DNA from: Blastocystis sp. Blastoise
Taxonomy: Eukaryota > Sar > Bigyra > Opalinata > Blastocystidae
Reading direction: 5' to 3'
Assembly: GCA_039096225.1 (NCBI GenBank)
Contig: JBBPEB010000005.1
Coordinates: 1,292,001-1,356,000, forward strand
Length of the DNA stretch: 64,000 nucleotides
Of the stretch, positions 21,076-50,235 are shown piece by piece. The first letter of the stretch is position 1. Every line of letters starts with the position of its first letter. The notes under the pieces were generated by a model. That model was not told the DNA's origin. It did no database searches and was given only the letters and a program-made list of their open reading frames with translations. The position numbers and the translations under genes are program-made.

Positions 21076-21443
21076 GCAAAATATGTATATTAACGTTTTT
21101 TTTTCTCTATATATTTTATTATATTAATACATTCAATTATCAATGTTTTTATGAATAGTTAATATTTTTAATGTTTATATCGAAAATATTAAAAAAATGT
21201 TTTATTTTCTCTGTAAATAATGGAATAATTATAATCAATATAAAAAATTGGATAAAATTCCGTTTACAATTGTCAGATAAAAAATACTGTAAAGTCATGT
21301 GAGATTGTGTTGAACATAATTATTTAATTATATAAAAAAACTTGTTTTTTATTATATAAATAAAAGCAAACAATATTAAAACAACTAAATAAATTAAATA
21401 TAATTATATAGATAAAATTAATAAAAAAACAATAAAGCTTACT
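21076..21443. other. Convergent intergenic spacer
   Basis: A 368-bp A/T-rich spacer between the stop codons of repeat-protein copy 1 (+) and the giant gene (-). It should hold both polyadenylation signals; several AATAAA-like hexamers occur but none can be assigned. Confidence 0.5.
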
Positions 21444-24400
21444 TTACTCCTTATTTTCATTTTCGTCGATAGTTGAAATAGAAGAAATAGAACCATCTTT
21501 CTCTACACCTTCTTTATATGTTTTTATATCATTTTGTAAATGAGGAATAAATAGAGGAGGACTATAAGCTTTGTTATCAAGTTCCTGTTGAATATCGAGA
21601 TCTGAAGGAATAACAGTTCGACTAATACGATTTATAGGAGATATACTAGTATTTCTATTAGAACTTGTTAATAAGGTATTTTTATTCTTTTGTTTTTCTT
21701 TATGATTTATTTTTTTTGTTTTTTTATTTATTTTTTCATCATTATTAGTTATATTTTCATTATTACTCTTATTATTTTCAATAATATTTTCATTATTATT
21801 ATGAGGATGAGACAAAGAAATAGATATTAATGGATTAGGAGAGGATAATGGGTTTTGAGATGAATATCCTGAAGAAGAAATAGAAGAAGTTCGATGTCCA
21901 GAATAATAGCCAAAAGAAGAATTTCGATGAGAAGGAGAGACAAGAGAAGGAGAACCATTTGAACTATATCTATTATTATTCCATAAAGGAAGAGGAGATT
22001 GACTGAAATCTAATCGATAATTATTATTTGTATATATAGGTATATGAGATAATGTATTATTAGAAGAAATAGGAATTTGATTTGATATATTGATTGATGA
22101 ATCATTCAATAGTTTAGATTGACCTATAGTAGATACTATAGGTATAGGTATATTTGAATTATTAAGAATAGGTGAATGACCATTAGTATAAGAATGAATA
22201 CCTGATCGAGTAGGAGATATAGTTGAATTAGATATAGGATGAGGAGATGAAGAATTATTATTATTATTATTATTATTTAATATGATTTGAGGAGTAGATA
22301 GATTATTATTATTATTTTCTTGATTTATAGATTTATTATTAATAGAAGATTGAGGAAGAATAACCATAGATTTCACACGATTTGTATTATTATTATTATT
22401 ATTATTATTCATTTGATTCATTTTTGATGCATTTAGAGCATCTATATTAAGAGATCTTCTTGTTAATAATGATTTACGATCTATTATTATAGTATCAGGT
22501 AATTCATTATTCTCTTCAGAATTCTTATTTATAGTTGATGAATTGATTGGATCATGAGGAGATTTAGAATTATTATTATTATTATTATTATCATTTATAA
22601 TCTTTGAATCTTCTTCTATTGGACTTTTAGATCCTTTTTTAACTTTACGAATAATAATTTTCTTTACTTTTTTCTTATTCTTATTATCTTCATTTAAATC
22701 ATTATTATTATCATCTTTTCTATCTTCAATAGTTTCAGAAATAGGTGTTGTATTTTCAGAAACAGGAGAATTACTGTTTTTCTTAACAATCTTCTTTACT
22801 ATACGTTTCTTAATAATCTTTTTTACTTTACGTTTAGGTTTCTCTTCTGTTGATTCTATAGGTGTAATTGATTCATTATTCTCATTATTTTCTTTATGAA
22901 TAATATCAACATTATTTTCATTATTATTAATTATAATATTATTTCTCTTTGATTTATAAGAATCTAAACTACTATGTTTTGATGAAGAATTAGAATTCGA
23001 ATTCGATTTTGAATTTGATATAGAAACACTTGAGTTCATGGATTGATGTTTAGAATCTACTATAGGTTCATGAGATATATTTAATATAGACATAGAAGCT
23101 CTAGAAGGATGATTCTGTTTTGGTGAAGATAGTATATTCATAGACGATCTCATATTTCTTATTGTAGAAGAATCTATAGTTTTTGATAAAAATTCTCTTC
23201 TAGAATTTAAACTAAAATTATTCTTTGAATTATTTTCTTGAATATCTTCATTATTATAATTATTATTCTTTCTTTGATTCATATTCAATAGAGTTCCTCC
23301 ACGTAAGAAATTAGGATTTCCTACAACAGAATCTGCTGTGATTATCATCTTTTTATTATTATTATTATAAAATGAATTATTATGACTATTATTACGACTA
23401 TTATAAAGATGAGAACTATCTCCACTTCCATCAATATCTAATCCCATAGATAAATCTTCAGTATCATTACTATATAAATGATATCGATCTCTATCTTGAT
23501 TTTTAGAATTCATCTTATGATCAAAACTATTACTATTCTTATGATGATATTGTGAATAGGATAAATATAAAGAAGGTCTATTAATAGAATCTTGATCATA
23601 AGTACTACAAGTACTACTCGTACGATGGAAATTATTCATTGAATAAGATCGAGTTATATTTGCATTATAATATTCATTAAATGATATTGTATGAATACTA
23701 TGACTAAATAATGAATGTTCTAAATTCATATTCATAGTTGCTTGTAATAAAGGTAATAAACGTTCTTTATCATTATTATCTGTTGATTTTAAAATAGGAG
23801 ATGTAGATCCTATTGTTGATGAAGGAATACTATGAGAATCAACATTATTTATATCTATTCCTTCAGATATATTCATATCTGTATTACTATTAATAGAAGA
23901 AGAACGTTCATTATGAATAGAAGAAGAATCACTTGAAGGAAATTGTAAGGATATATATCCAGGAGAACTAAATGAACGAGTTATTGAATGAGGCTGTAAT
24001 TGTAATTGTTGTAAATAAGTATAATATAACTATAAAAAGGATTTTTTAAATTAATTTATATTAATATAATAATAATAAATATATACTTGTAAAGCTTTTA
24101 TACGTTTAATTCTTCGTTTAATTTCTTGTTCATTTTTATTTACTATAATAGATTTTTCTTTCCATAATTCATCTTGTTTCATTTTCTGTTGAGTTTCAAA
24201 AGCATATTGATTTTCTGTTAATCGATATTTACCTCGATCTCTTAAATCAATACCACTATTGATCCATTCTTGTGTTTCACTATGCCATTGATCTTCAATT
24301 CGATCACTTTCTTTTGTTGTCTCTAATTTCACAAAGGTCTTATTCATAAAATCCCATCGAAATTTATATCGTAATAACATAAATAATAAATATCTATAGA

Positions 24401-27400
24401 AATAGATATATTATTTTTATAAATAATTTAAAATATAATAAATAATAAAATAATAATAATAATTAATAAAAAAAACAACTTACAATAAAATAATAAAACA
24501 TGGAAGATAAACAAAGCAAATAATCATTGTGATTGTATTAATTTGGAAATTTTGATTTGTATATATATAAGGATAAGATCCTTTTGATAATTTGGGTCTT
24601 ATAATAATACCATAAACACCACTTTCTTTAATATTACATAGAATCATACTTTTTTCAAATCGATATTGAATTTCATCTAAACATTCAAATTCATTTCGTT
24701 TCTCATTTAATTTAGCAATACAATGTTCATCTTCTGTAATATCTAATGGATGACGATAATAAGTATTATTCTGAAGTACACGAGGTAATAACCATACTTT
24801 ACGAGGGAACATTAAATCGATCTCTATTGCATTCATTAACGATTCTACACGTTTATTATAAATATCTATAAAAGTTAAATTTAATATTAATCCATGTTGA
24901 ATTACAGGTAAATGTAAAGATAATAAAGAAGAATCATATCGAGGAGGTTCATATATAGCTATAGGTTTTCCTGAAATAAAACGTAATTCTTGAAGACGTG
25001 TATAATTATTAGCTTTATATGTATATTGATTTAATTGTGAAGATGATAATGTTGTTATGGATAAAAATATTGGTAAATTTGTAGAATGTAATTGAGCTAT
25101 ATAAAAATAATATATTTTATTCATTAATTAATATATATATATACCATGAGGTGTATGTATATAACCATAAAAATCATTCGTTTGAGTATATAAAATAATT
25201 TGTTTTGATTCTTGACCTAATAAAGTAATACGATAATCATAAGGAAGTATATCTCTTGGATTTAAATATAAACATTCAGATATAGAATAATGACAACTAC
25301 CATCAAAACATCTATAAATGATTTATTGTTATTGTTATTATTATAATAAAAAAATTAATATAAAAAATAATTAAAATAATAAAAATAAAAATAACAACCA
25401 TACCTATACATATTATTTGGACAATTATACAATCCTTTACATGATAATGTAGATTCTGTATTTGAATTGAAAGATATACATGTAGAATCAGGACATCTTA
25501 ATTGATTCTTCATACATCCATAAGTAATAGGACATGTTAATCTACAAATACCATCTGAACATAATTGATATGTAGATATAAAACAACTATATGTATTATT
25601 ATTTGAATATAGAATAGGAATAAAAATAGATAATGTTGTAGAATCATAATGAATATTAATTTGATTTGATTTTTCTTTAGAATAAATAGAATAATCATAA
25701 TAATGATAAGGTGAATAAATAGATCTTCCTACTTGTTGTCCTGATGGTGATATAAATATAGAATTACAATCGATATTGATATCTACACAAATACCATTAG
25801 GACATCTTTTAGGAGATGTAGTAGGACAAGGAGGAATAGGAGGACAAAGAGAAATATCACGAAAAGACCCATCAGGACATAATGTAATAGCAGAAAAAGG
25901 AGAAGGAGAAGGAAGAGATGAAAATAATGTTATATTTAATGTTTCACAATAAAGAGGAGAAGATACACATAAATCATTATAACAATGATAAGGAAGATTC
26001 TCAGGACAATTTGATAGTAATGGACAATCACCTTCATTTAATACACATGTACCTATAAAATATTTTTATTATAAAATTATTATATATATATACCATCAGG
26101 ACATTCTACAGGTAAATGTGAAGGACAAAAAGGAAGTTTTTCTGGATCTTGCTATATATATTATATTATTATTAGTATACAAATAAAAATAAAAATAAAA
26201 ATAAAATAAAAATAAAATAAACATCACCTACATACATTACAATTTATACATGGTTTACATAAACTATAATGAGCTACACAACTCATATCATCACATAGAA
26301 AAGGAATATCTTTTGGACAAATAGGTCTTTTTGGACAACTTCTATATAGAAAACTAATTTCTTGATCTGTTTCTTTTCCTTGTATTAATGTATAATTTTC
26401 TATAGAATTATAAGGATTATCAGATTGATCTTCATTTATAATATTTAAAGATAATAAAATAGGTGAATATCGTTGACCATGTAAAGGAATACAATCTCCA
26501 GAAGCACATGCTTGAGAATGATATATAGAACATCTATTTAATAATAAACATTGTGAAGGATGAGAAACACATTGACCATTTGGACATATATAAGATTGAT
26601 TTATAGGACAAGAATATGTATTAGAATTTAGAATAGAAGAACATTCATTTCTTGTAGAAACACAAGTACCATTAGAACATAATATAGGATGAAGAGGAGA
26701 ACAACCATTAATAAATGTACATTCATTAGCATTCCTTACACATTCTCCTCGAATACATTTATAAGGTCTTTCATGAGGACAAGAATGATATGTATATTCA
26801 GTTGTACAATTATAAGAATATTTCACACAACGACCTGTTGGACATTTATAGGGAGATGAGAGTGGACAACCTATATATATTATTATTATTTATTTATTTA
26901 TTAATATATATAATATATATGTAATAAATAAAACCTTACCATTATCACTAAGACAATCTTCTTCTTTTTCAACACATAATCCATTATATAATCCTGTTTT
27001 ACACATATAATTATAAGGAGATGTACATATAGTTCGATCAGTACATAAAGAAGAAGAAGCACGACAACTACCATCAGAACAACGAATATAATTTGTATTA
27101 TAATTACTTGTATTACAAGGCATAATCAAAGGACAATCTGTATACGATTTCACACATATACCTATAGCACATCGAATTGGTTTATCTTCACTACATAATG
27201 AAGGAAGACTAGAAAAATAAGAATATAAATATTGACGATCTACAAAATAAACTAAAGGAGATTCAAAGAGTTCTGAAGAAAATAAGGATAACTTATTATT
27301 ATTATTATTTATTAATGTATGTTCATATTCATTTAATAAAGGAGATGATTTCTGAAGATTATTTTCTGTAAAGAAAGATTTATCCATATATTTCATAAAA

Positions 27401-30400
27401 GAATCGATTATTGTATTATATAGAGTATTTATTATAGATTTTATATTATTCATTATTTTATTTATATAACTATTATTATTTATATCTGTATTCAATAATG
27501 AATTAACAAATAAAGAAGGAGAAGGAGATGTATCTTCAGGAATAAATGAATAAGAAGAATAAGGACAATAAAAAGTAGATATCATACATAAACCATTCTC
27601 ACATTGTTTATATGGAGCAACACATAAAGCTAGATAATAGTTATTTATTATTATAAATAAAATAATAAAATAAAATAAAAAAAAAAATAAAAAAATAAAA
27701 TAAACAAACATACGACTACATTCTTCATCTTCTTTAATACATTCACCATTATAACATGATTTAGGTTTAGAAGAAAAGCAACCATTCGAAAGAGGACAAT
27801 CTTCTATAGATTGACGACATGTACCATCTAAACAACGTATATATCCATTAGTATTACAAGTCCAATCACAAGAAGAATGATAAATATCTATATTATTCTT
27901 TGAACTATCTTTTGAATAACATATTAATGTATTATGACACCATCCACTAAATTGATCACTATTACAATTATCATTCGATGTACATTCTTCTTTTGAAGAT
28001 ACACATAATCCTGAAATACATTTATAAGGTTTAAACATAGGACATAAAGGTTCAGAACATAAAGAAGAATCACGAACACATGTACCATCAGAACATAAAT
28101 ATTTATCATAACTACAAAAACCAGTCACATAATGATCACTTTCCATTGAATATTTATCTAAAAAAAAATATTATATATTATAAAAAAATATATATTATAA
28201 AATAAAATAAAATAAAATAAATAAAAAAAAATTATAAAATAATAAAAAAAAACATACTATAATAACCTTCATATCCATTAATACAATCACTTCGATCTTT
28301 AACATATTCTCCATGAATACTACAGAAACTAGTAAATTTAGTAACTTGTCTTGCTCCTGTAGTAATACATTTTCCATTAAGACAATTAGAAGGTACATAA
28401 GGAGGTATAGGTGGACAATCATCTTCAGAAACATGACATGATTGATCCCAACATAATATAGGATTTGTAGTTGGACAATATAATAATGGACATTTCTTTG
28501 TTATAAATACACAACTACCATCATTACATAATTTATAATTAATAGGACAATGAATAGTATTAAGACATTGATTCTGATGATAATGACATAATCCATCACT
28601 ACATAAAATAGGTTTATTTCTTGGACATATACGATAAGAAGGACATTGTTCACTTTGAGATATACAACTACCCTCTATACATCGTTTACTACCTTTAGGA
28701 CAAAGAGGAGGAGGAATAGAATTCGATAAGATATTCGATTGAAAGGATGTATCTGTAGATAATGGATCCCAATAATATTTATTTATAGAAGTTAAAGATC
28801 CTTCTATAGAAGCAATAGGATCTCCTGTAGGTATAAAATAGGGAGATATACTATATATATAATAACTATCATCACTATAATGTATATTATATCTTCTACA
28901 AGGATAAAATTGATAATTACGTGAACATAAATGTTGATATCGATCTTTTATTTTATTTATACAATTATTTATATCTTCTTTATTATTATATACATTACAT
29001 ACATCTATATACATTTCTAAATATTTACTAACACATTGTTCTATTGTATGTTTTATATTTAAATCTGATTTATCATGATATTCTGTTATATCTAAATATT
29101 CTTCATTATATTCTTGTAAAGAATTATAGATATAAGGGAATATATTAGTAACACCATAAGTACTATCTTCAATCATATAACAACCTCCATCTTCACATCT
29201 CATTTCATTATCTCTACATACAGATATAGTAGGACATAAATAAGAATGTTCTACACATATTTTTTGATAATCACACATATAGAATCCTAATGGACAATGA
29301 TAATTAGATTCATCAGTACATAATGAATAAGAAGATACACAATAACCAGTATCACATAATATAGGACTCGTAGTAGGACAAATAACAGGACTTGAACATA
29401 ATAAACTATTTCGTACACATGTTTTACTAGAAGAACAATAATATGGATAAGCAGAAGGACAATGAGAAGTTAATAATATTGAAGAAGAAGGAATAGTTAT
29501 ATTTGTAGTAGTTTCTAAAGATTTATTTTATTTATATAGTTTATTATTTATTATTATTATATAATATATATATATACTTCCTTGTTGATTTCTTTCAATA
29601 AAATGAATTTGTGAATAACAATCTTTAGTATTTTCAACACAAGTACCATTATCACAAAGAATAGGTTTTTCAAAAGTACATAAGATACTAGGTCTACATT
29701 GTTGATAGAATAAAGCACATCCTCCATTAGGACAATTTATATAAGGAGATCGACAAAGAGGTGTTTGAGAACAATAAAAAGATGAAGGTTTACATGTATT
29801 ATCAGGACATAATACAAGAGGAGAAGGACATGTAAAGTTATTAAAGAAAATATATAAATATATAAATAAATATAATAAATATAAATAAATATTATAAATA
29901 TATAAAGGATATGAAACATGTGTTGGACATTCAAGCATAGAAACAACACAAGTATTATCATTACATTTATAAAAGTTCTTTGGACAATTTGTATAAATAT
30001 TAATGATTGTAGATTCATTTAAAGATTTTTCATAAATAATATTATTATAAGCATCTTTATGATAGAGAGGATAAGGAAATAAAGTAGTTTCTTCATTATT
30101 ATTATTAGTAGTAATAGTTTTAATAGAAGAAATAGCTTGAATATTATTATTAAGAATAGAAGAAGATGAATATAAATTCATATTTCTTGATCTTGTATTT
30201 GGTGCACTTTCAGATAAATTTAAATATAAGAATTTATTATCATATTGATAATTATAAGTTTCACCAAAAATAAATATAGAATCCGAAATACATTGATTTG
30301 AAGGAGATAAATGATAATATCTTGGACATGTAATTGAAGAAGGACATAAAGTAGCATTCTTAACACAATATCCTTGAGGACATCGATAAGGATAGGTTAA

Positions 30401-33400
30401 TGGACATGTTGTATATATACATTCAGATATACTATAATTATAATTATTATTATTATATTATTATAATATAATATATATATATACTTATGTGTACACATTC
30501 CATCAGGACATAAAATAAGTGGTTTAGGACAAAAACGAAGAGAAGGACATTCAATTGGATCAATAACACAACTTTTCTATTTATATATATATTATTAATA
30601 ATAATAATAAAATCATATAAAATACTTTATCCCAACATAAAATAGGAGCATAAGAAGGACATTGAATAGAGTTTTTATATTGATTACATTCTTCTATAGA
30701 TACTGCACAAGTAACTAGATCTCCACAAGTAATTGTAGAAGGTGGACAATGAACTTGTTGAGGACACATTTGTTTATTTATAGCTATTGTTCCATCAACA
30801 CATATTACTTTATTTGTATCATGTATAGGAAAAGAAGGACATCTAAAAATATATATATATTATAATATATTAATTATAAAAATAAATCAATCTATATACT
30901 TCATATAATTATCAACACAAGCTCCATTTTCACATATATATCCATGACAAGTACAATTATGAATATCTTGTTGACAACCTATATGAATATCTTCAGATTC
31001 ACGATTCATACAAGCTTCCATTCCTAGAGGACAAGTAAGACTATTATGACAATCATTCCAATCAGAAACACAATGAATAGTTTGTCCATTATCAACGAAT
31101 TCTATAGGATTCTTTATGTAATCACCATTCATATTATTATAACATATATAAGGACTAAGAGAAGAATGCTGCTTACATAAAGAAGGAAGGAAAACAAGAT
31201 TTGGTTGAGTACCTAATAATATCTTTGTATAGATTTCTGTATTTGTAAGATCATCCCAAGTAATATCTGTTAAATAAAAATCTATAGATCCATAACCATA
31301 TAAAGGAGATAATATAGTTAAACTATGTATATAAGGAGTCTGAGATTTGAAAGGAATAGTCAATCGAAGCTATATACATAGAAATTTTATGAAATAATTA
31401 TTATTAAATATATATATAAAATCATACAGATCTTTGTTTTCCACTTGAATCAAGAGTAATAATAGCAAATAGAGTTTTATTGGATGTATTAATATCTAAT
31501 AAATTCCCTAATGCATCACGAATCTTAATAATCATAGTCACATCTGTATATAGAGAAGTACTCTCTGAAATAAATGATATATATGTATTTGTATATTCAG
31601 GTTCTAAAGGAGAAAGAGGAGTAATTTTATTAAGAAATATTATATAGATATATTTTTATAATTATATTATATATAATATAAAGGATATAGATAATGATAT
31701 TGAAGATATGGATGATTATTAATAATAGGATAATATATATAATCACCAGAATAGATTAATTTATATTCACAAGTATAGGAATCCTTTATAAATATACAAG
31801 GGAATAGTTCAGTATGAAGAATAGGATTTCCATCACCCTCTATATCCAGTGATACATCCATTTCAATAGAAATAGAATAGGCATCAAATTCTATTGGACG
31901 TTCATATATATCATAAAGATATATATATATAAAACAAGTTGTATTCACACGTTCACATTCATCATTCTTAAGGACTATTTATATTTATATTTATTTATTT
32001 ATATATAGATTAATAAGAATACTTGTAGATTGATATCTGATTTGTGCTGGATACAGTTGAATCTTTAATAATGGAAAAGGAGAAGTTGAATTATAATATA
32101 ATTGAAGTGTATATTCAGTTAGTATATTTATTAAAGAAAATAATTTTTATTTTTTAAATATATTTATAATTATATAAATAGGATATAATTTCCAGGATGA
32201 GTAGAAGTTAAATCATTATAAATTATCAAATATTGACCTATATAAAAATATTATATTTTATTATATTATTATATATATACCAAGTTCTTTATCATATAAT
32301 TGAACAGTCAAATGAGGTGGAATAAACATTGTATTCGACTATATAGAATAATAATAATAATAATATATATATTATATATATACAGAAGATGTAATAGCCA
32401 TAGAGAATAGATTTGTGTCAAAATAGGTATATACAGGATTCTCATATATATCTACAGTAGATAATAAGAATGATCCTTTTGTCTATTAATATATAATATA
32501 ATATAATATATAAATATATACATTTTCTCTTAATCCATGTATACTACATAATCCATCAGGTAACTTATCTTCATTCTCTAAGGGAGAACAGGAATATATA
32601 TAGGAAGTAGCTTCTGATGGTTTTATAATAGCTTGTATTGGAGAATTCTATTCATATATATATATAGAATATAATAATATAATAAATATACTAATAAAGC
32701 TACTCCAGATCGTTTTACATATATATCATAGTTTCCAATTGTATATAAATATAACGAAAATACATATACATTTCCATAAATTAATATTGCATAACTATAT
32801 AGATATATAATAATAATAAAATATATATACCTATCAGTTTCTATACGAGTTTCATTCTTATATATTTCTATATATAATTCTTTTGATATATCTTCTTCTA
32901 TTGTATTATTAAAGGAGTGATTATTAAGAAAATATTTATTTATATAATAATATAATATATATATAATATAAAAGATATATCAAAGAGATGAACATGAATG
33001 AAAATTTGATTACCAGCTATATAAGCTATATATAGAAATAATAATGATAATAAATATATATATATATACTTTTATTAATTCCTTCATCATCTAATAATTC
33101 TATATATAATAAAATAATAAAAATACATATAATAAATACCATTTTTTCCATAATCTTCATAATTAGGAACAGGAATAGGATTATTATTAGAAGGGAAATG
33201 AATAAATGATTGTTGAGGGTCCATAATTGATGGAGAAATAATCAATTGAAATTGTTGTTTATAATGAATGTATTCAAGAGAAAATGTTATTGTGTATGTA
33301 TCAGCATCAATATAATACATTCTATATAATATAATAATAATATAATATATATAATATATACTTTGTATAAATAGTATTATGATCAAAAATAAAGATAGCT

Positions 33401-36254
33401 GGTTTATTCCCTGTGCAATAAGGTAAATCACATACATTGAGATTATTACCCTTAGAATCAATCACTTTATAATATAGTAATAATAATAATAATAATATAT
33501 ATACATGTTGATTTTAAGAATGGTTGAATATAAGTAGGATTAATATCATTACCATAAATATCTCGTGGATGAAATGTACAATTGAATTCTATTCCTGTAG
33601 TTAATTCATCAGGACAAAGTAAATAAGAAGGAGATCCAAGAAGATCTATATAATTATATTATTATTATATATTATATATATACTCATATTAGGATAAGCA
33701 TAAGTAGTAGTAGTAAGTATTTCAATATAGGGTTTATCTTCAAAGGATGTAGAAATAGTAATTGTATATAGATCTCGATAAGAAGAAAGATGAAGAGGAG
33801 AATCTATTAGAAACTATATAAATATTAATTATATATATATTATTAATAAATATACATGAATATGATTATTATTGAGAGTATAAGAATAGAGAAGAGGAGG
33901 AGAAGAAGTTAAATTGAATTGTTGATTTATAGGAATAGGACTATATATAATAAATAGTATATAAAAACAATATACATTTCATTATTATGAATATCTTTAA
34001 CAATAACATCTAATTCTCTTCTTATTTCAGGTACAAATCCCATACTGAATGTTCCTGAATAGGTTGATGATAAAGAATACTTTAAACATGTCCATGTAGT
34101 AATTGTCACTGATGTATCCAATATAGGCATATTATTATATAATAATATAAACGTATAATTACGAGCAGTAGGAAGATGAGGTATAGTTGTATATAGATTA
34201 AAGAAAATAATAGTATTTAATTATTATTATTAATATATATATATATAAAAGGATATTTATAAGTACCAGGTGATGTAGTTTCAACTATATACATGATTCC
34301 ATCATAATAATCTTCATCTATATTTATCCTATATATATTTATATTTATATAATAATAATAGAATACCATTTAAGATTAGATTGTTGACCCGTAATAATAT
34401 GCTGATTTTCATCAAATATTTGAAATGAAAAGAATGGATCAGTTTCTAAATTGACATTTAATATCGATGATACATGAAATTTAAGAGGAGATGTTAATCT
34501 ATACAGATATATAAAAAAATAATAAAAAATATATATACATGAATAGAGAATAAGGAAGAGAAGATAGAGTAATAGGAATATCTTTAGAGAATAGATTATC
34601 CTGCTTATTTTGAAAGAATAGACGTATATATAAATAAGGATATTCTGATTCAGTAAGACCAATAATAGAAGACATTTCAACAATATAATGAATATGAATA
34701 CTATAAATAAATAATATAAATAATAATAATAAATATACGTATTATTGAGTATATGTTTATCTACAGTAAAAGGAGTATCTTCTAAAGTATCAGCTCGTCG
34801 AATATCTATATCAATATATTCTCCTTCATGATTATATATAGAAAAAGAAGGATCTTCTTTTGAATATCCACCTTCTTCAATATAATATGTAGCATTCAAT
34901 GAATTAAAATATTCATCTTTTAAATTCATATAGATATCTCCACAAATAGAAATATTAGTAGAATCACAATAAGAAACAAATTCAATTCCAGTACCATGAA
35001 TATCAGTATGAGCAATATAAAGAGTACCAGGAACAACAGTTAGATAAGAATCATAGATATTTCCAGAAACTAATGTAATCAATGAAATCTTATGGAATCC
35101 TGATACTTTAGCAGGTATAGAACATGTACTAAGAAGACTTATTGAATCTGGATTCATAACATCATAATAAGTATTTCGATCTATATAAAATTAAATTAAA
35201 ATTATATATATATTATATATATACCTTCTACATAACTATAATCACATATTTTATATACACTTTGTAAATTAATTACTGAATTATTATATCTATAAATTAT
35301 ATATATATGAATAAAAAGAATAATAAAATAATTACATATCAAAGAATTTGATGTTTATAGGAATAATATCACCAGCAGTATAAAGAGAATCATGAGTTAC
35401 TTTTATTGTAGATGTACTATATATATATATAAGAGAATAATAATAATAATTAATATACATTTCAGTAGAAGGTATAGTAGTGATATTCCATTCTAAAGAG
35501 GACCAAATATTATCTTCAGATAAACAATCTATTTTCACAGTGATATTTCTAACTTTTGAAGGTAATTGAATAAATGTATAAAGAGGACAAATAGAAGTAT
35601 ATTGATATTCTTGTGTATATATATCAAGAGAAGGAGATGTTGAAAATGAATAAAAGGATTTCTGAGTATACTATATAATAATATTATTTAATAAATAAAT
35701 ATATATATATATACATCTCCATCACCTTTAATATACACTTTATATTTATCTCTTCGATTATCTAAACAATATCCATCATCATATATATCTCTTGTATATA
35801 TATACATATACGTTAATGTACCTGCAAAACTAATAGGACTGTAAAAAGTAGAATTAAGAAATATATATAATATTATTATTGAGAGAATATAATATAAAAT
35901 AAAATAAAAGGATATATAGATTTCAGTTTTCGAGCAATCATTAGGACTAATTCTACTTTGAATAGTACAATATATATAAGAATTAATCATATCAATATCT
36001 TCTTCTTCTTGATTTAGAAGACGTACATATAAATGACCATTAGAAATCTCACGAAAGAAACGAATGGATAATGTATATTGTGAAGTAGAATCCATAGTGA
36101 TTCTATAACTAAAGAATTGATCGGATTCACCTGGAAATAAAGGAATATCAAATCCTTCTGAAGATGTTACATATAATTTTATTATAAAATTATTCTGATT
36201 CACTAAATTATAATAACGATCTCTTACTATTAATGTAAACTATATATATTATTT

Positions 36255-36286
<32 letters not shown>

Positions 36287-39200
36287 CAACACTTCTATAT
36301 AAAGGAATAATTGAATAGATAGTAGAGATAGAAGAGTAGAGATAAGAAGGAACATCACTATATACTGATAATTGGAATGGAGTATTAATCACAGATAAAC
36401 CATTCACACTATAAAAATATTATTATAAGTTTATTTATAATTATACAAATATACATCCATCTAAAATAAACAGATTCTGAAGTATACGAAACAAATTGAT
36501 ATATTAATTTTTCATGTAATGGATCTATATATAATAATAAATAATAATAACTAAATAAATACCTTCTTTTGAAGTAAAGAAATAAGATTGATCTGTATTT
36601 AATAGAATTGTTCCTGTAAATAATGTTGTAGGAACTGTATTATTATATTCATCACGAAAATATATTTCAAAATTATCTATATATTTATGTTATTATTAAA
36701 TAAATATAAAATAAATATATACGAATAACACCAACAGTAGTAGTTCTATTTGGTGGTATAAAAATAGTATTAGAAGGAAGAAGAGAACCATGAGTTACTG
36801 TCCATGCAGATAAAAATGGAGAATAATGAATAGGAATACCATCTACTGTTATATAAATATCATATATAGCTACATAGATAGCTTTTAAATATAAATAAAG
36901 AGAAGAAGAAGAAAGATAGGAGAAGGTATATGTAGGAAGAGATGGAACTATATATATATATAGAATAATAATAATAAATAAATAAAATAAATACCGTTTC
37001 GATCACTAATAAAAGTGACTTTAATTCGTTGTTCGAGATCGATATCTATAGGTATTTGTCCACATCGACTATTAAGAAATAATTGAAGTGGATATATAGA
37101 TCCTGCAGTACTCGTGAAGAAGAGAGGATATTCAGAAGTAGTAATAGTAGTAGAAGTCAAAGGAATCGTTGATACTGTAGGAGATATCAATTGGATACCC
37201 TATTCAATATAATTATATTATTATTATTATTAATATATACATTTTCGGGTGAAATAATTTCTAAATAATATCCTGATGATAGATGAGAGACAGAATCCTA
37301 TATATATAATAATAATAATGATTATATATAGAATGATACAAGATTGATATTGAGAGTATGTTTATTCGAGAGATAGAGATGAAGTTGATTATATCTAGAG
37401 ATCAATTGTAGAGTTAATTGTCCATTATTATAGAAGGAATAGGATACTGAAGTAATTATAGAAGGAGATTTCATTGTAGGAGGAGTATCACCAGGTAAAT
37501 ATACTTGAAGAACTATATATTATTAATATTTAATATTATTATATTTATATACTATTTTCATTAAAGAAGAATATATAAGAATTAGATTGAGAGAAACATC
37601 GAGATTGAAGTATATTATTATAAGGAATATCAGGGTTTATTACAGGAGTAGAAGAAGAGTATTGTATATAAGGATGAAGAAGAATACAAAATGGAGATAT
37701 GGATTCTATATATATATAATATATATTTAGTATATATATACCTAAATAGATATTTGATTTAAATTGAAGTATTTCATACATATAAATATGATATCCAAAT
37801 ATTGATGTTTTATTAAGAGATACAGTCTAAATATATATATATAATAATAAATATATATATATACTTGTTGTTGAATATGAATATTTTGGAAATCTCTTGT
37901 ACAATAATAAGGATTTTCTCCTTCACTGTTTAAAGTACTACTATAGCTATTTCCAGAGAGATTAATACTACTATTCATATTTGGTATAGTTGTAGTATCT
38001 TCTTTATCAATAATCATAGAAACTACTTTAGAGAGAAGAGGAGCATCACAGAGAAATGTCAAATTCGTTTGAGTTATAAAACGAGATATAGAATCTATAT
38101 AATAATAATATTATTTTTATTATTATTATTATTATATACTTGATTGAGTTCCACATGTTCTAGAAGCAAAGAATATAGATATAGAATAGGTGATTCCAGG
38201 AATAAGACCTAATTTATCTGCATAATTCGTTATATTAATATGAGAACCAACTGGAGTATTATAACTATATAAATAATAATAATAAATAATATTTAATATA
38301 TATATATACCCTCCATAATCTAAGAATAAATGTTTATTAATAAAAACCCATAATCCATTATTCGTTTCAAAATCTATAAATTGATCTGTTCTATTCTCAT
38401 ATCTATATATATAATAATAATATTATATAAATATAAAATAATAATATACAAGAAGAATAGATTTGTTTTCATAGTAAACCAACATTTCTTACCAATATAT
38501 TCTTCTATTGGACTTAATGCATATCCTCCTTTTACATCTGTTAAAGGAAAATAAGTAGGACTAGAAGATATAAAATTTTATATATATATATATATATATA
38601 CTAATTAAGTGTAAGAAGGTTTTTGGTACCAATAATACCAATAAGAGGAAAAGAGAAAGAATAAGAATTATTACTTTCTGTAAACCATGTATTGAAGGTA
38701 GAATATGTAGAATTCATAGATGCACTATAAAAAGAAGAATAAAAAAGAAGAATAAAAAAAAATATAATATATATATATATATATACAGGAAGATCATAAT
38801 CATTGAGTTCTGATTCAACGAATCCAGTTTCTTTAGAACTTCCCCATTTCTGAAAGTCAGTATTCCCTTGGGGATCTAAACAACATAATCGAGAAATCAC
38901 TTCATTATTATGGAAATCATCAGTAATATCCTCTACGAAACAACATCCATCTCCTGCAGCAGTATAATCATAATAGGTACTCATTGTATATATTATAGCT
39001 ATAAAGAATTATATTCATTATATATATATATATAAATATACGAGAAGTAGCAACAAAAATTCGAATATTGTTATCAGCATAATCATTCACTTTATCACAT
39101 ACTGTTTCTACTCTATCTTCTTTTGAATATAAATTTGAATATATATATCTATATAAAAAAATATAAAAATAATAAATACATATATATATACTTTGGATAA

Positions 39201-40091
39201 TTTGAAGGTTGTTTTGTAATAAAATTATCTGTATAATGAATAATACAATCACGAATACCAAATCCTTTCTCATCAACATATAATGCATATACTCTATATA
39301 AATAAATAAATAATTAATAATTATATATATACTTATAAGTAACTGATTTTGTTTGTATTTCAATATATTCACCTCCAGGAAGTGATTGACAAGATTCATA
39401 AGGCCATTGATTTGTTATAAATTCATTAAATGTAGAATACTTTTGAAAAGTCATTATGAAATATTCATCATCAGACCAACCATTTATATTCAATATTAAC
39501 AACTTTAACGAGGTTTCTGGCAATAACGAAATAGGAAGGGAACCTATAAATATATTTCAATTTATAATTATTTTTTACAGATAAATATGATGATAAGAAT
39601 CATAAATTTCATATTTATAGAAATTAAAAAAAAATATAAAAATCATACCAATTACGTCGTAATCTCTGAATGAATTATTCTCTATGTTCTTAAAGCCTGT
39701 AGGATCCGATATATGTTCTATATAACTTCGTTTATCTGTTATAAAGTCATTATTGGAATTCGAATAAAACATTTCCCACATTTGACCTTGAAAATGATAA
39801 CAATAAGTCTAAATAAATGAATAAATGATTCTAGAATTCTATTTATATATCATTACATACAAGATAAACTTCATTACGATCTTTTCCTATCCAAACATAC
39901 TCAGAATCAAAATAATAATCACCTCCTTGTTTTATCATACAATCTTGTGCAGGCAATTCTCTTGATTTACCTATTCAATTATGTGGAATATTATGGAATT
40001 AAGAGAATAGAAAAAAATTACCTAGTGTTTTTTCAGAATTCACTGCTAAACATGTAGTATAGATGAATAAGAGTAGATAAAATATTCTCAT
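21444..40091 (-). CDS. Giant single-pass membrane receptor-like protein: filamin/Ig-like ectodomain, Cys-rich repeats, TM helix, long cytoplasmic tail
   Basis: About 60 short introns; by rough estimate near 5,000 residues. The start MRIFYLLLFIYTTCLAVNSE is a clear signal peptide. From about 40.0 to 31.3 kb the exons encode beta-rich sequence with recurring motifs such as PGTLYIAHTDIHGTGIEF, AGNQIFIHVHLFD and SPGTYK, resembling filamin/Ig-like repeats, after an N-terminal region that I do not recognise. From about 31.3 to 25.4 kb come close to 40 Cys-rich units of the form CPxxxPxxCxDGxCVxxxxxC, lacking the acidic calcium motif of LDLa repeats. A transmembrane helix near 24.5 kb is followed by LLRYKFRWDF, then a tail of about 970 residues rich in Ser, Asn and Lys with no known domain. 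Frame was followed across the tail, TM and many ectodomain junctions. It looks like a surface adhesion or sensing receptor; ligand unknown. Six introns are AT-AC. Splitting into two genes is possible but no internal start or stop supports it. Confidence 0.72.
22600..22850 (-). other. Basic Val/Ile-Lys-Lys tracts in the cytoplasmic tail
   Basis: Two clusters, VKKIIKKRIVKKIVKK and VKKIIIRKVKKGSKSP, lie in the tail about 45 residues apart. Alternation of Val/Ile with Lys pairs suggests amphipathic basic helices or strands that could bind acidic lipids or nucleic acids. That role is inference. Confidence 0.7.
24362..24540 (-). other. Transmembrane segment and stop-transfer of the giant receptor
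   Basis: Exon end TITMIICFVYLPCFIILL joins, over a GTAAGT...TATAG intron (24394-24480), to YLLFMLLRYKFRW. Together this is one long hydrophobic stretch followed at once by Arg/Lys, the classic stop-transfer arrangement. It sets the Cys-rich array outside and the 24.4-21.4 kb part inside. Confidence 0.85.
25380..31300 (-). repeat. Array of close to 40 Cys-rich protein repeats
   Basis: Units read like CPINQSYICPNGQCVSHPSQC, spaced about 20-30 residues. Representative cores are CSDGTCV, CIRGECV, CDNGTCV and CPNGGCA. Variants replace DG by NG, IG or DQ. Some units are separated by hydrophilic spacers, for example 27230-27520 and 28740-29200. The pattern resembles Cys-rich repeats seen in surface proteins of some early-branching fungi and protists; that comparison is from memory. 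About ten introns interrupt the array, one of them AT-AC (29832-29912). Confidence 0.85.
29832..29912 (-). other. U12-type AT-AC intron (a), 81 nt, in the Cys-rich array
   Basis: 5' end ATATCCTTTA, branch-like TTTTCTTTAATAA, acceptor TTTAC about 9-10 nt past the branch A. Splicing joins ECPTHV-S to CPSPLVLC in phase 2 and restores the usual spacing between Cys units. The length is a multiple of three with no stop, so read-through would insert about 27 hydrophobic residues. Confidence 0.8.
31621..31688 (-). other. U12-type AT-AC intron (b), 68 nt
   Basis: 5' end ATATCCTTTA, branch-like TTTCTTAATA, acceptor ATTAC. The exon ends CAT TAT CT and resumes T CCT CTT, giving HYL-PLSPLEPEY in frame. 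Read-through meets TAA in the intron, and no usable GT-AG pair exists at these borders. Confidence 0.85.
32122..32186 (-). other. U12-type AT-AC intron (c), 65 nt
   Basis: 5' end ATATCCTATT (one mismatch to ATATCCTTT), branch-like TTTTCTTTAATAA, acceptor ATATAC. Phase 1 join gives HPGN-L-TEYTLQLYYN. Read-through meets TAA. No GT is present at the 5' border. Confidence 0.78.
32917..32978 (-). other. U12-type AT-AC intron (d), 62 nt
   Basis: 5' end ATATCTTTTA (one mismatch), branch-like TTTTCTTAATAA, acceptor AATCAC. Phase 0 join gives IHVHLFD-SFNNTIEED. Read-through meets TAA. The branch-to-AC distance is short, about 7-8 nt, so the exact acceptor is less sure than in the others. Confidence 0.68.
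34189..34256 (-). other. U12-type AT-AC intron (e), 68 nt
   Basis: 5' end ATATCCTTTT, branch-like TTTTCTTTAATCT, acceptor ATATAC. Phase 2 join gives TTSPGTY-K-TIPHLPTARNY and runs on into MPILDTSVTITTW. Read-through meets TAA, and no AG occurs near the downstream border, so a GT-AG alternative is excluded. Confidence 0.88.
35841..35915 (-). other. U12-type AT-AC intron (f), 75 nt
   Basis: 5' end ATATCCTTTT, branch-like TTTCTTAATTC, acceptor TTTTTAC about 13 nt past the branch A. Phase 0 join gives CSKTEIY-SPISFAGTLTY. The intron is a multiple of three without stops; the competing TTTTTACAG acceptor would cause a stop two codons later. Confidence 0.8.
40044..40091 (-). other. Signal peptide of the giant receptor
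   Basis: The first 16 residues are Met-Arg followed by a hydrophobic core (IFYLLLFIYTTCLA) and a small-residue end suited to signal peptidase, before VNSEKTLG. The first intron begins right after the G-rich codon of TLG. This supports 40091 as the true start. Confidence 0.85.
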
Positions 40092-46837: not shown

Positions 46838-48661
46838 ATTAAGTAAATTCTTTTATATTTGCTTTTTGTTGTTGCTTTATATATAATCTATTTTTTTTTC
46901 TTATTTAAAAAAATATTTAAATTTCTATTAATTATATATATATATAAATTTATTATTTTATTTGAAAATGATGGAATAAAAATAATCAGTATATATGTTA
47001 GCTGTTGTTTTCAGTATTTGATGTTTTTAAAATAACATATTATTGTTTGCTATGAATTCATTGTTTTATTGTGCTTATTAGGTATTCTTAAAGAAGAATA
47101 AATACTTCAATAGATATATTCTTATACAAAAATAATTTGAAATAATTTTTGGTAAAAATGTTTAATAACTGTTAACTACTATATATGAAGTATTAAAAAG
47201 AAAAAAGACTGTTTTGGATCTACTTTTTATGTTCTAAAAGAATTATAAATTCAAAATATATAAAAAATTATTTGTTTTAGGGTTTCTTATGTGTTATAAT
47301 ATGTTTGTTTAACAGTTTATAAAAGTAGTTTCAAAGTAAGCTGTAGAAGAATAGAGGAAATATGTTGTTTATATAAGAATCTTTTTTCATGCTTAATATA
47401 TAAAATACCAAATAGTTTTTTGTATATGTATAATTAAATATCATATAGAGACTTTGATATAAATAGATTAATAGTATAGTATACCATCCAATAGAATTAT
47501 ACATGTTTATAAATATTGAAAAAATATGTTTTTATGATTCATTATAAATGTAAAATATATTTAAAAATTACAGTTATTAAATGTATATATGAATTGCTAT
47601 ACTTGAAATCATTTTATGTGCTATTATATCATAATTTAATTATTTATTATATAATTGATATTGTTTAAATAAGATAATGAATAAGAAACGTTCTGTACTG
47701 GGAGCTAATCATATTTGGTCTATAGATGAATATGGTAAATATATATAAATTAAGTATCTTAGATAATAATTTTTTGTTGAATAGTATATAAAAATAAAAG
47801 TGATAATAATTGTTTGGATGGAAATAATATACTCATTTACATGATAATTATAAGGAGTATAAGATATATTATGATTAATTATTTTAAAGAATAAAAATAG
47901 AAAAAAATAATGATTTTTTAATTAACTAGAAGGATATTGAAATTGAAAGAAATAAAATAATTTGAATGGGTAGAGAATTATATTATGAATGTAATAAATA
48001 TATAAAAATATTAAATCGAGGATAGAATTGGAATGATTAGCTAAAGAAACATCAAAATTATAATTTAGATCAGTGATTCATGTAGTTCATTGCTATTTAA
48101 ATAATATTAAATATATATTTATGTTCAAATAGATCCTATGAAGAAGATTTGAAACCAAAATGTGAATAAAAGTAGAAATTCAAAAGTAATTAATGAAAAT
48201 TATTAATATTCAGAACACTCTGATTAAATACTAATATAAAATTGACTTGTTACCGTAGCTAATTGAACAAAGAATGATAATTATTTGTTTATTTTGATCT
48301 ATTTTAATGTTATTCTTGTAGATTACATGATTTATAAATAAAAAAATCAAATATTTTTCTTTATAAATGCAATTTTATTGAATAATAAAGAGATTTAAAA
48401 AATGAATAAAAAAATTTGCAAATAATCTATATTTATTTTAGAATAAAAGTCAATGAATCAAAAATAATCGTGAATTGGTGAAAATCTAGTTTTTTATAAA
48501 TATTTACGATTATTATTATTTTTTACGCTATAAAAATATATTTCACAATTGAGTTATTTAACTAGAATTTTGAATAAGAGAGACATGTTTCTCTTTATAA
48601 GATAGAAAAAGAGTTTTTTAAAGGAGTTTTCACTTTTATTTTATTCCTTTGATTGTTTAGA
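46838..48661. other. Intergenic region with a possible integrase remnant
   Basis: About 1.8 kb of A/T-rich DNA between copy 2 and the BTB-TLDc gene. Apart from the short integrase-like fragment at 47677-47748, no gene is seen. Confidence 0.5.
47677..47748 (+). mobile_element. Possible remnant of a DDE integrase-like gene
   Basis: The fragment MNKKRSVLGANHIWSIDEYG fits the G-x-N-x-x-W-x-I-D segment that carries the first catalytic Asp in integrase-core proteins of the R-x-Y-x(3)-G-P-N-x-x-W-H-I-D-G family. It is followed by a stop, and the next few hundred bases show only scattered frames. If real it is a dead remnant; a chance match of a short stretch is also possible. Confidence 0.35.
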
Positions 48662-50235
48662 ATGGTGAAAGAGAAGGTAGAATTTGATGCGAATAAGATT
48701 GGTGATATTCAGAAGGATGTAATTCATTTTGAAAGACTGATTGGTGATTTGATTGGTATTTTAAGTAAGTCAATAAGTTTCTGTATTCATTCAGGTGAAT
48801 CTATAAATGAATTGGTAAAGCAATCCGTAAGAAATTGTGAAGGAATGAAGGATAAGAATGGTGATGATCCACATATAATTATCCAAGAATCTTCTTTTCT
48901 GAATGAAAATGATTTAAATATGAATAATAATGATAATGGAATTGATTATATTCGATTCACAAGTAGTGGTCCAGCTTATTCTCTTCCTAAACGAATAACA
49001 AATAGTTTAGTAGGAACATTTTTATATGAATATTCTCAAGAAGATAAAAGAAGTGTTGATGGTACTATTTTTTTTGATTATCGTGGTGATGAAACACTTT
49101 TTCCTTTATTAATTGATTCTTTAATGAATAAGAAAATAAATATTGATAAATTGAAATTTGGTGATCAAGTTGATTTATTAAAAATGTTTGAATATTGTGA
49201 ATTACCTATTCCTGAAGAATTAATGAAAACCTATTATAGAAGAGATCATGGTGTGAAACAATATAAAGAAGGTGATGATGTTATTCTATATATAAATGAT
49301 AAGGAAGATGATAGATTAAAAGATTACTTAAAGAAGAATGGATTAATGAATAAGATTGTTAATGAATATGGTAATGGATATGTAGATTATGATGAAAAGA
49401 ATAATGAAATGTATATGAAGATGAATTATACATATATTGATCATATTTATGAATATATTCAATATAATTGTATTTATATTTCTAAAGAAGAAACAAAAAA
49501 TATAAATAGAGAATTATTAGAGAATGAAATGTATAGATTATTTGGTGATAAAGTAATAAATATAGTGAATGAATGTATAATTCCTCATTCATATTTCCTG
49601 TATACACGTATAATTACTAATGAATATTCAATGGAAATTCCCTTAATGAATTGGCTTGGTAAAGAAAAGAAATGGAAATTATTATTTAGGTATATTTATA
49701 TTTTATTAGTATTATATCGTTATATATATAGAGCAAGTAAACATGATTTCTTAGCAAGTGAATTCCATAAATATTGTGATGATCAAGGAGAGACAGTAAC
49801 TATAATCAAACATATAGGTCATAATAATCATATGAATGTATTTGGAGGATATACAGATCAAAGTTGGGCTGGTTCATGTAGTATATTTATTTATTTATAT
49901 AATTATTCAATATCAATTATATAGGCTATAAATCTCATTCTAAAGAATTTCTATTTACTTTAAGTAATGAACATGGTATTCCACCTACTAAATATGATAA
50001 TATTAATAGTAGCTATGGTATATGTTGTTCTTCTTCTTATGGTCCAACATTTGGAGGTGGCCATGATATCTGTATATCTGATCAATGTCATAGTAATTCT
50101 AATTCTTATTGTAATGCACGTTCTTATTCTGAAGTGAAAACTCCTCAAAAACATTCATTATTTGTAAATACAAATAACTCTAATTCTCAAAATAATTATA
50201 AAGTAGAAGATTATGAAGTCTGGGGAAGAGCATAA
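48662..50235 (+). CDS. BTB/T1-like and TLDc domain protein
   Basis: Starts MVKEKVEFDANKIGDIQKDV with a helical N-terminus. A T1/BTB-like module follows: SGPAYSLPKRITNSLVGTFL, DGTIFFDYRGDETLFPLLID and FGDQVDLLKMFEYCELPIP. A middle region of about 190 residues contains a second, weaker module of the same kind (around ENEMYRLFGDK). The TLDc domain is split by two introns: KWKLLFR joins ASKHDFLASEFHKYCDDQG (54-nt intron near 49690), then NVFGGYTDQSWAGSC joins YKSHSKEFLFTLSNEHG (intron ending at 49924). It closes with GGGHDICISDQCHSNSNSYC and VEDYEVWGRA, the typical final strands. TLDc proteins act in oxidative-stress resistance and V-ATPase regulation in other eukaryotes; the role here is not known. 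It shares the TLDc fold with the kinase at 12840-15697, but not its overall architecture. Confidence 0.85.

Follow-up and report, generated by a model that had tools for sequence, protein, structure and literature searches.

Analyzed here is a 64,000-nucleotide (nt) stretch of DNA, referred to as the window, from the stramenopile Blastocystis sp. Blastoise (Blastocystidae; contig JBBPEB010000005.1, positions 1,292,001 to 1,356,000). Its G+C content is 12–27% per 2 kb. On its minus strand lies a giant membrane-protein gene (21443..40091), for which our own Viterbi gene model predicts a protein of 5186 aa encoded by exons separated by 53 GT-AG and six AT-AC introns. The six AT-AC segments, which have the appearance of U12-type introns, and the candidate genes of a minor spliceosome that could remove them are the subject of this study. 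Read by eye, the predicted protein has a signal-peptide-like start, a repeated region, CxDGxC Cys-rich repeats, one membrane segment and a low-complexity tail. No family was matched in a Pfam scan of residues 1–888, and a protein search with a 2919-aa piece matched only two distant proteins. A distant homologue with like Cys repeats (P0080, 4638 aa) was seen on a 14.2-kb contig in ENA.

The self-written gene finder combined codon frequencies learned from the window's open stretches with hand-set scores for two intron classes, GT-AG and [AG]TATC...TTYYTTAAY...A[CG]. Its total of 59 introns omits at least one further GT-AG intron (42 nt, near 35420-35460; 41 nt in the paralogue described below) that was taken as coding. 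A preliminary description of this stretch had counted about 60 introns and proposed that six of them are AT-AC introns with phases 2, 2, 1, 0, 2 and 0 in coordinate order, lengths of 62–81 nt, ATATC starts, a branch-like motif and an AC end 7–13 nt beyond it, four of them with in-frame stops if retained. The model reproduces each of these points at the same coordinates, with one 3′ end ambiguous.

All six introns are on the minus strand. In gene order, with the length in the paralogue after the slash, they are intron 1 (35841..35915, phase 0, 75/83 nt), intron 2 (34186..34256, phase 2, 71/71 nt), intron 3 (32917..32978, phase 0, 62/59 nt, beginning with ATATCT), intron 4 (32122..32186, phase 1, 65/67 nt, beginning with ATATCCTA), intron 5 (31621..31688, phase 2, 68/70 nt) and intron 6 (29832..29912, phase 2, 81/68 nt). 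For intron 2, two AC ends three bases apart (34186 and 34189) each preserve the frame; the finder picked 34186, and the end at 34189 would shorten the intron to 68 nt and give a spacing of 9 nt, as in three of the five other introns. The starts are ATATCCTTTATA (twice), ATATCCTATTTA, ATATCTTTTATA and ATATCCTTTTAT (twice), with ATATC common to all. A TTCCTTAAC-like branch motif lies near every 3′ end and in each case fits TTYYTTAAY, as TTCTTTAAT in three introns and TTTCTTAAT in three, and AC follows 7–13 nt past the last A of TTAA. The 5′ splice site rule RTATCCTT, with T permitted at one of C5 and C6 (PMC2846911), is followed by five of the six, the intron starting at 32186 deviating at +8.

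The anatomy of these segments and the logic of their reading frames can be read directly from the DNA. One alternative to introns would be inserts of low-complexity coding sequence. Introns 1 and 6 would suit such inserts, being open if retained and multiples of three in the window copy. The other four, starting at 34256, 32978, 32186 and 31688, contain in-frame stops. Retention of intron 6 would moreover disrupt a Cys repeat, while its removal yields the repeat spacing CPTHVSCPSPLVLCPDNTC, and the homologue P0080 aligns over that junction. Further evidence comes from a paralogue on contig C13 (L030), which carries all six AT-AC introns at equal position and phase. Its intron lengths differ from those of the window by +8, 0, −3, +2, +2 and −13 from intron 1 to intron 6 with the frame kept, so that five of the six pairs differ in length and four differ by a number that is not a multiple of three; neither intron 1 nor intron 6 of the paralogue has a length divisible by three. 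Gaps in the paralogue face a single window position out of 4881 in exons (located inside the missed 42-nt GT-AG intron), 16 of 422 in U12-type introns and 141 of 1001 in U2-type introns; 77 of these 141 represent two introns absent from the paralogue. Exon identity between the copies is 98.6%, with a ratio of nonsynonymous to synonymous substitution rates (dN/dS) of 0.28 over 1539 codons. Because the copies are so close, the indels speak for removal of the segments and not for conservation of their motifs. We give the coding-insert explanation next to no weight.

The paralogue also shows differences among its GT-AG introns. Two occur only in the window copy (33941-33975, 35 nt, and 33814-33855, 42 nt), with the flanking exon letters joined gap-free in the paralogue, and two occur only in the paralogue (1084-1122, 39 nt, and 1245-1287, 43 nt), with the exon letters joined gap-free in the window. 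None of the six AT-AC introns shows such a presence/absence difference. Recent gain or loss of introns seems to be active in this gene family, judging from these two copies. Duplication of an internal domain was weighed as a source of the six AT-AC introns and set aside, as their phases in gene order (0, 2, 0, 1, 2, 2) do not suggest one copied unit.

Public annotation of a paralogue implies a different splicing of the same region, in which the major spliceosome would remove the segments at GT-AG borders displaced from those given above. For the AT-AC part of the giant gene a single annotated protein was found, WA158_006823 (731 aa) of a paralogue, and it skips 29 residues around intron 2, as a spanning GT-AG intron would make it do. 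The same protein, however, enters its first shared exon via FLNSTFY, a read-through of the end of intron 1, and terminates nine residues ahead of intron 3, so that it looks like the product of a predictor blind to AT-AC introns. The GT-AG alternative also drops coding sequence that the AT-AC model retains in frame. Under the finder's scoring, no model restricted to GT-AG introns spans the giant gene: over 41500-24800 the score is 2086.2 with U12-type introns permitted and 1993.8 with them forbidden, and the best model of the latter kind splits the gene into three parts. Removal of the segments as GT-AG introns is thus very improbable.

Decoys were used to estimate how often the U12-type pattern arises by chance. 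In the whole window the finder made six U12-type calls, all in the giant gene, and with the same scoring five decoy motif sets of a composition like that of the real motifs gave 1, 0, 0, 1 and 0. In a sample of 19 10-kb stretches, of which five adjoin one another on the window's own contig and two contain 5000 and 2500 N that were treated as A, four of 381 introns were called U12-type (decoys 1, 0, 1, 1, 0), and in our judgement only the call in L014 looks strong. At this rate of 1.05%, the probability of six or more among 59 introns is 3.7e-5. The statement in the preliminary description that one intron in ten is minor-class thus holds for the giant gene (6 of 59) and is a property of its family, not of the genome, given the sampled rate of 4/381 and the 346 of 35,412 introns reported for Blastocystis subtype 1 (ST1) (PMC5608401). 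Likewise, AT-AC ends are found in all six introns as had been stated and are not special to this gene, since 77% of ST1 minor introns are AT-AC (PMC10639083). Across the genome (33.3 Mb in 34 contigs, some stretches being N), the pattern RTATCCTTN{28,58}TTYYTTAAY has 175 matches, a total that takes in repeated copies of the giant gene, compared with 42 for the reversed control. Of these 175 matches, 100 are listed, and by our count 98 of those start with A, where chance matches in an AT-rich genome would lean to A too.

The preliminary description had also proposed looking for genes of U11, U12, U4atac and U6atac, whose absence it counted against itself, and candidates for all four small nuclear RNAs (snRNAs) were found. 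U11 (C4:1684165-1684293) scored 62.9 bits in Rfam, U12 (C24:844725-844868) 46.8 bits, under its cut-off of 53, and U6atac (C21:544821-544937) 63.8 bits; a U6 gene lies 6.6 kb from U6atac (94.1 bits). The Rfam U4atac search of the whole genome gave no match. A divergent U4atac candidate (L024, C8:151033-151167, minus strand) was located via a pattern complementary to the stem II region of U6atac together with an upstream element, and it scored 29.7 bits (E 0.0035 in 601 bases), also under a cut-off of 53. The complement pattern has three matches, namely U6atac itself, this candidate and L023, compared with 10 for the control. In a predicted cofold, the U4atac candidate and U6atac form two intermolecular stems that flank a U4atac hairpin. 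Two-stem pairing of U4atac and U6atac is also the arrangement elsewhere. The 5′ end of U11 is AUAAAGGGC, with predicted duplexes to the six 5′ splice sites of −3.4 to −7.3 kcal/mol, and U12 retains GAGUAAGGAAA, whose pairing with the branch motif was judged by eye. These candidate genes and their complementarity are direct observations. A strong U12-like stretch (ATATCCTTGATT...TTTCTTTAATTATGTAC) was also seen on the opposite strand less than 100 bases from the 3′ end of U6atac (L002, 1355).

A gene for CENATAC, which is required for AT-AN introns in human cells (PMC8280824), is present as well. PF14968 matches above its cut-off in two pieces within C4:1257772-1259852, and the predicted first 124 residues score 66.7 bits. 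At about 570-742 of L045 (C4:1257600-1259900), this gene apparently carries, from 673 onward, a 5′ splice site and a branch motif of U12 type within a U2-type intron, whose start at 570 was read by eye, the finder having picked 627. The arrangement, here taken from sequence alone, is like the competing sites of animal CENATAC (PMC8280824).

The snRNA genes share an upstream element. It reads CTTCTAATCA and stands 57–64 nt upstream of U6, U6atac, U11 and U12, 60 nt upstream of the stretch that led to U4atac, and also upstream of U1, U2, U4, U5, U3 and a signal recognition particle (SRP)-like RNA. The form WMACTTCTAATCA occurs 18 times in the genome (control, 5), at U4atac, U6atac, U6 and U12 and at 14 further places, nine of which carry U1 (two), U2, U4, U5 (two), U3 (two) and the SRP-like RNA, the last under its cut-off. 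The other five (L031, L034, L037, L039 and L040) matched nothing in Rfam at E values up to 1. Among them, L040 ends in a ATTAATTTAT stretch resembling the U1 and U2 ends of this genome and may be an undescribed small RNA. At U11 the element is one base off the pattern searched. Written as AAACTTCTAATCA, the element offers a handle for the snRNA genes of Blastocystis sp. Blastoise, L031-L044 being among its places.

Based on the motifs, the decoy control, the frame-breaking length differences in the paralogue, the four minor snRNA candidates and CENATAC, we consider it highly probable that this multicopy Blastocystis gene family carries, in the six segments, AT-AC introns of the U12 type that the minor spliceosome removes, as the preliminary description had supposed. 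Several points weigh against this conclusion. The intron borders are predictions from sequence, frame and paralogue indels, the motif conservation in a paralogue of such identity says little so that the indels bear the weight, and the public model WA158_006823 does not follow the AT-AC borders. The finder's weights were set by hand and its codon table was derived in part from the giant gene itself; with a minimum intron length of 40 nt the gene was broken once, at 34676, with the same six introns still called. U12 and U4atac fall short of the gathering scores set by Rfam, and the complement pattern behind the U4atac candidate matched less often than its control. Finally, the core of U6atac deviates from the consensus exactly at the stretch expected to pair with AT-AC introns.

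This core reads GCCGAGAGA, compared with AAGGAGAGA in the family consensus (over a longer stretch, UGAGCCGAGAGAAGG in the Blastocystis gene and UGAAAGGAGAGAAGG in the Rfam consensus). In AAGGAGAGA, the AAGGA pairs with the UCCUU of the 5′ splice site. With the six sites, this U6atac forms predicted duplexes of just −0.1 to −1.6 kcal/mol, as opposed to −4.5 to −8.9 kcal/mol for the consensus core. It has thus lost most of its predicted pairing with the 5′ splice site, although the introns retain ATATCCTTT. Intron C5 still faces a G of U6atac, while C6 and U7 face C. In our own numbering on the Rfam consensus, and unlike human U6atac, a C is aligned to position 14, and the two A residues of positions 12 and 13 are replaced by G and C. 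In human cells, a change at intron C5/C6 is rescued by the matching change at U6atac 14/15 (PMC4980772).

The gene found could be a diverged extra copy, with a canonical U6atac lying in an unassembled part of the genome. The assembly, with its 34 contigs and its stretches of N, leaves room for that, and the altered motif is conserved in the Rfam consensus. Against it, this was the sole U6atac-family match among the candidates scored, and it has the shared upstream element at a U6-like spacing, a T-run end and a U4atac candidate with which to pair. No exact AAGGAGAGAAGGTT was found in the 33.3 Mb (one-mismatch matches, 26; control, 18), and Rfam does not recognize U6atac at either of the two further places that match AAAGGAGAGAAGGTTAGCA with up to three mismatches, so that no canonical second U6atac was seen among them. 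We regard an extra copy as unlikely. Introns with matching ATATCGGC starts were searched for as RTATCGGCN{28,58}TTYYTTAAY, with 0 matches in the genome and 0 for the control, a weak test in an AT-rich genome; co-evolution of the 5′ splice sites with the U6atac GCCGA, which would predict such starts, was set aside. With no AAGGAGAGAAGGTT, no other U6atac among the near matches and no ATATCGGC-start introns, the U6atac gene found appears to be the working copy, its core altered while the introns are not.

Two other leads on the altered core were dropped. A new helix between CGGCCUCAA of the U12 5′ end and UUGAGCCG of U6atac (−10.1 kcal/mol) was equaled by 4189 of 20000 shuffles and is at chance level; better partners for U6atac than the U12 5′ end exist elsewhere in U12 and in U11 and U4atac. 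Relatives of the core were sought in viral_contigs and genome_contigs, where the longer patterns had 0 matches; a 15-mer of the core hit 48 viral-contig stretches, of which two passed a crude flank filter and neither was U6atac-like by eye. No description of a changed U6atac core in Blastocystis was found in the accessible parts of the literature on U6atac divergence and on Blastocystis minor introns.

From the sequences we infer both splicing of the six segments and the way the 5′ splice site would be held once U11 departs. The 5′ splice site, with its UCCUUUAU-like letters, would first be bound by U11 (AUAAAGGGC) and the branch motif TTYYTTAAT by U12 (GAGUAAGGAAA), in both cases through base pairing, after which U4atac/U6atac would join. 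U6atac would then take the place of U11, with just U4-A, C5-G and a wobble remaining of the usual UCCUU/AAGGA helix. We think that selection of the 5′ splice site is done mostly by U11 and proteins. Tentatively, and with somewhat more doubt than belief, we propose that in this Blastocystis ATATCCTTT introns are activated by a minor spliceosome whose U6atac is devoid of the AAGGA helix, the identity of the 5′ splice site coming from U11 and proteins and U6atac giving little beyond U4-A and C5-G. Going by the title of a 1998 paper by Incorvaia and Padgett, activation of U12-type introns reportedly requires pairing between U6atac and the 5′ splice site.

U12-type introns are known from Blastocystis. 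Gentekaki et al. (2017; PMC5608401) reported 346 of them in 319 genes of ST1 along with the four snRNAs, and the seven U11/U12 proteins (20K to 65K) for both ST1 and ST7. A later survey by Larue and Roy (2023; PMC10639083) counted 253 minor introns in ST1, 49% of them in phase 0, and found that such introns turn over rapidly within the genus. The genome studied here is like ST1 in that its minor introns are typically AT-AC and make up about 1% of introns, all four snRNA genes are represented and phase 0 is not avoided (two of six). Unlike in ST1, where minor introns average <42 bp (PMC10639083) and are spread over nearly as many genes, the introns here are 62–81 nt long and all six stand in one gene. 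The enrichment above 0.5% resembles that of Physarum (PMC10639083; PMC2846911), where however the whole genome is enriched, in contrast to one gene family here in a genome at about 1%. A minor spliceosome with U11, U12, U4atac and U6atac is shared with the human system (PMC4980772). Clustering of U12-type introns in genes has been reported for 21 genomes (PMC7367187). The six introns are therefore a new, locally rich case of a known phenomenon, and what is new is the presence of six in one multicopy gene and the U6atac core.

By eye, stretches like introns 1, 2, 5 and 6 recur on C8, C13, C14, C16, C17 and C20 among the matches listed. Among these matches, at least four sites (the window included) have introns 1, 2, 5 and 6 in order, and at least six others have introns 1 and 2 or intron 1 alone. 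Of eight family sites, six lie 45–111 kb from a contig end and two lie at 194 and 351 kb, a distribution that subtelomeric spread might explain. The window contains a member of a second, large protein family, at 48653-49924, with 79 relatives here and elsewhere in the genome, all from this isolate; PF07534, which we take to be the TLD domain, is found in 78. A protein encoded within 48653-49924 on the plus strand shares 96% identity with WA158_006561 of Blastocystis sp. Blastoise.

The AT-AC introns may account for the broken public gene model WA158_006823. Six minor introns in one gene exceed the one to three per gene of mouse and human (PMC6717393), and copying of this one gene raises the minor-intron count of the genome. 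If the proposal for U6atac is true, the restriction to AT-AC introns and the kept CENATAC would be parts of the same shift in recognition, and a natural U6atac without the pairing element would show that the requirement for this pairing can relax, making Blastocystis a test case beyond animals and plants.

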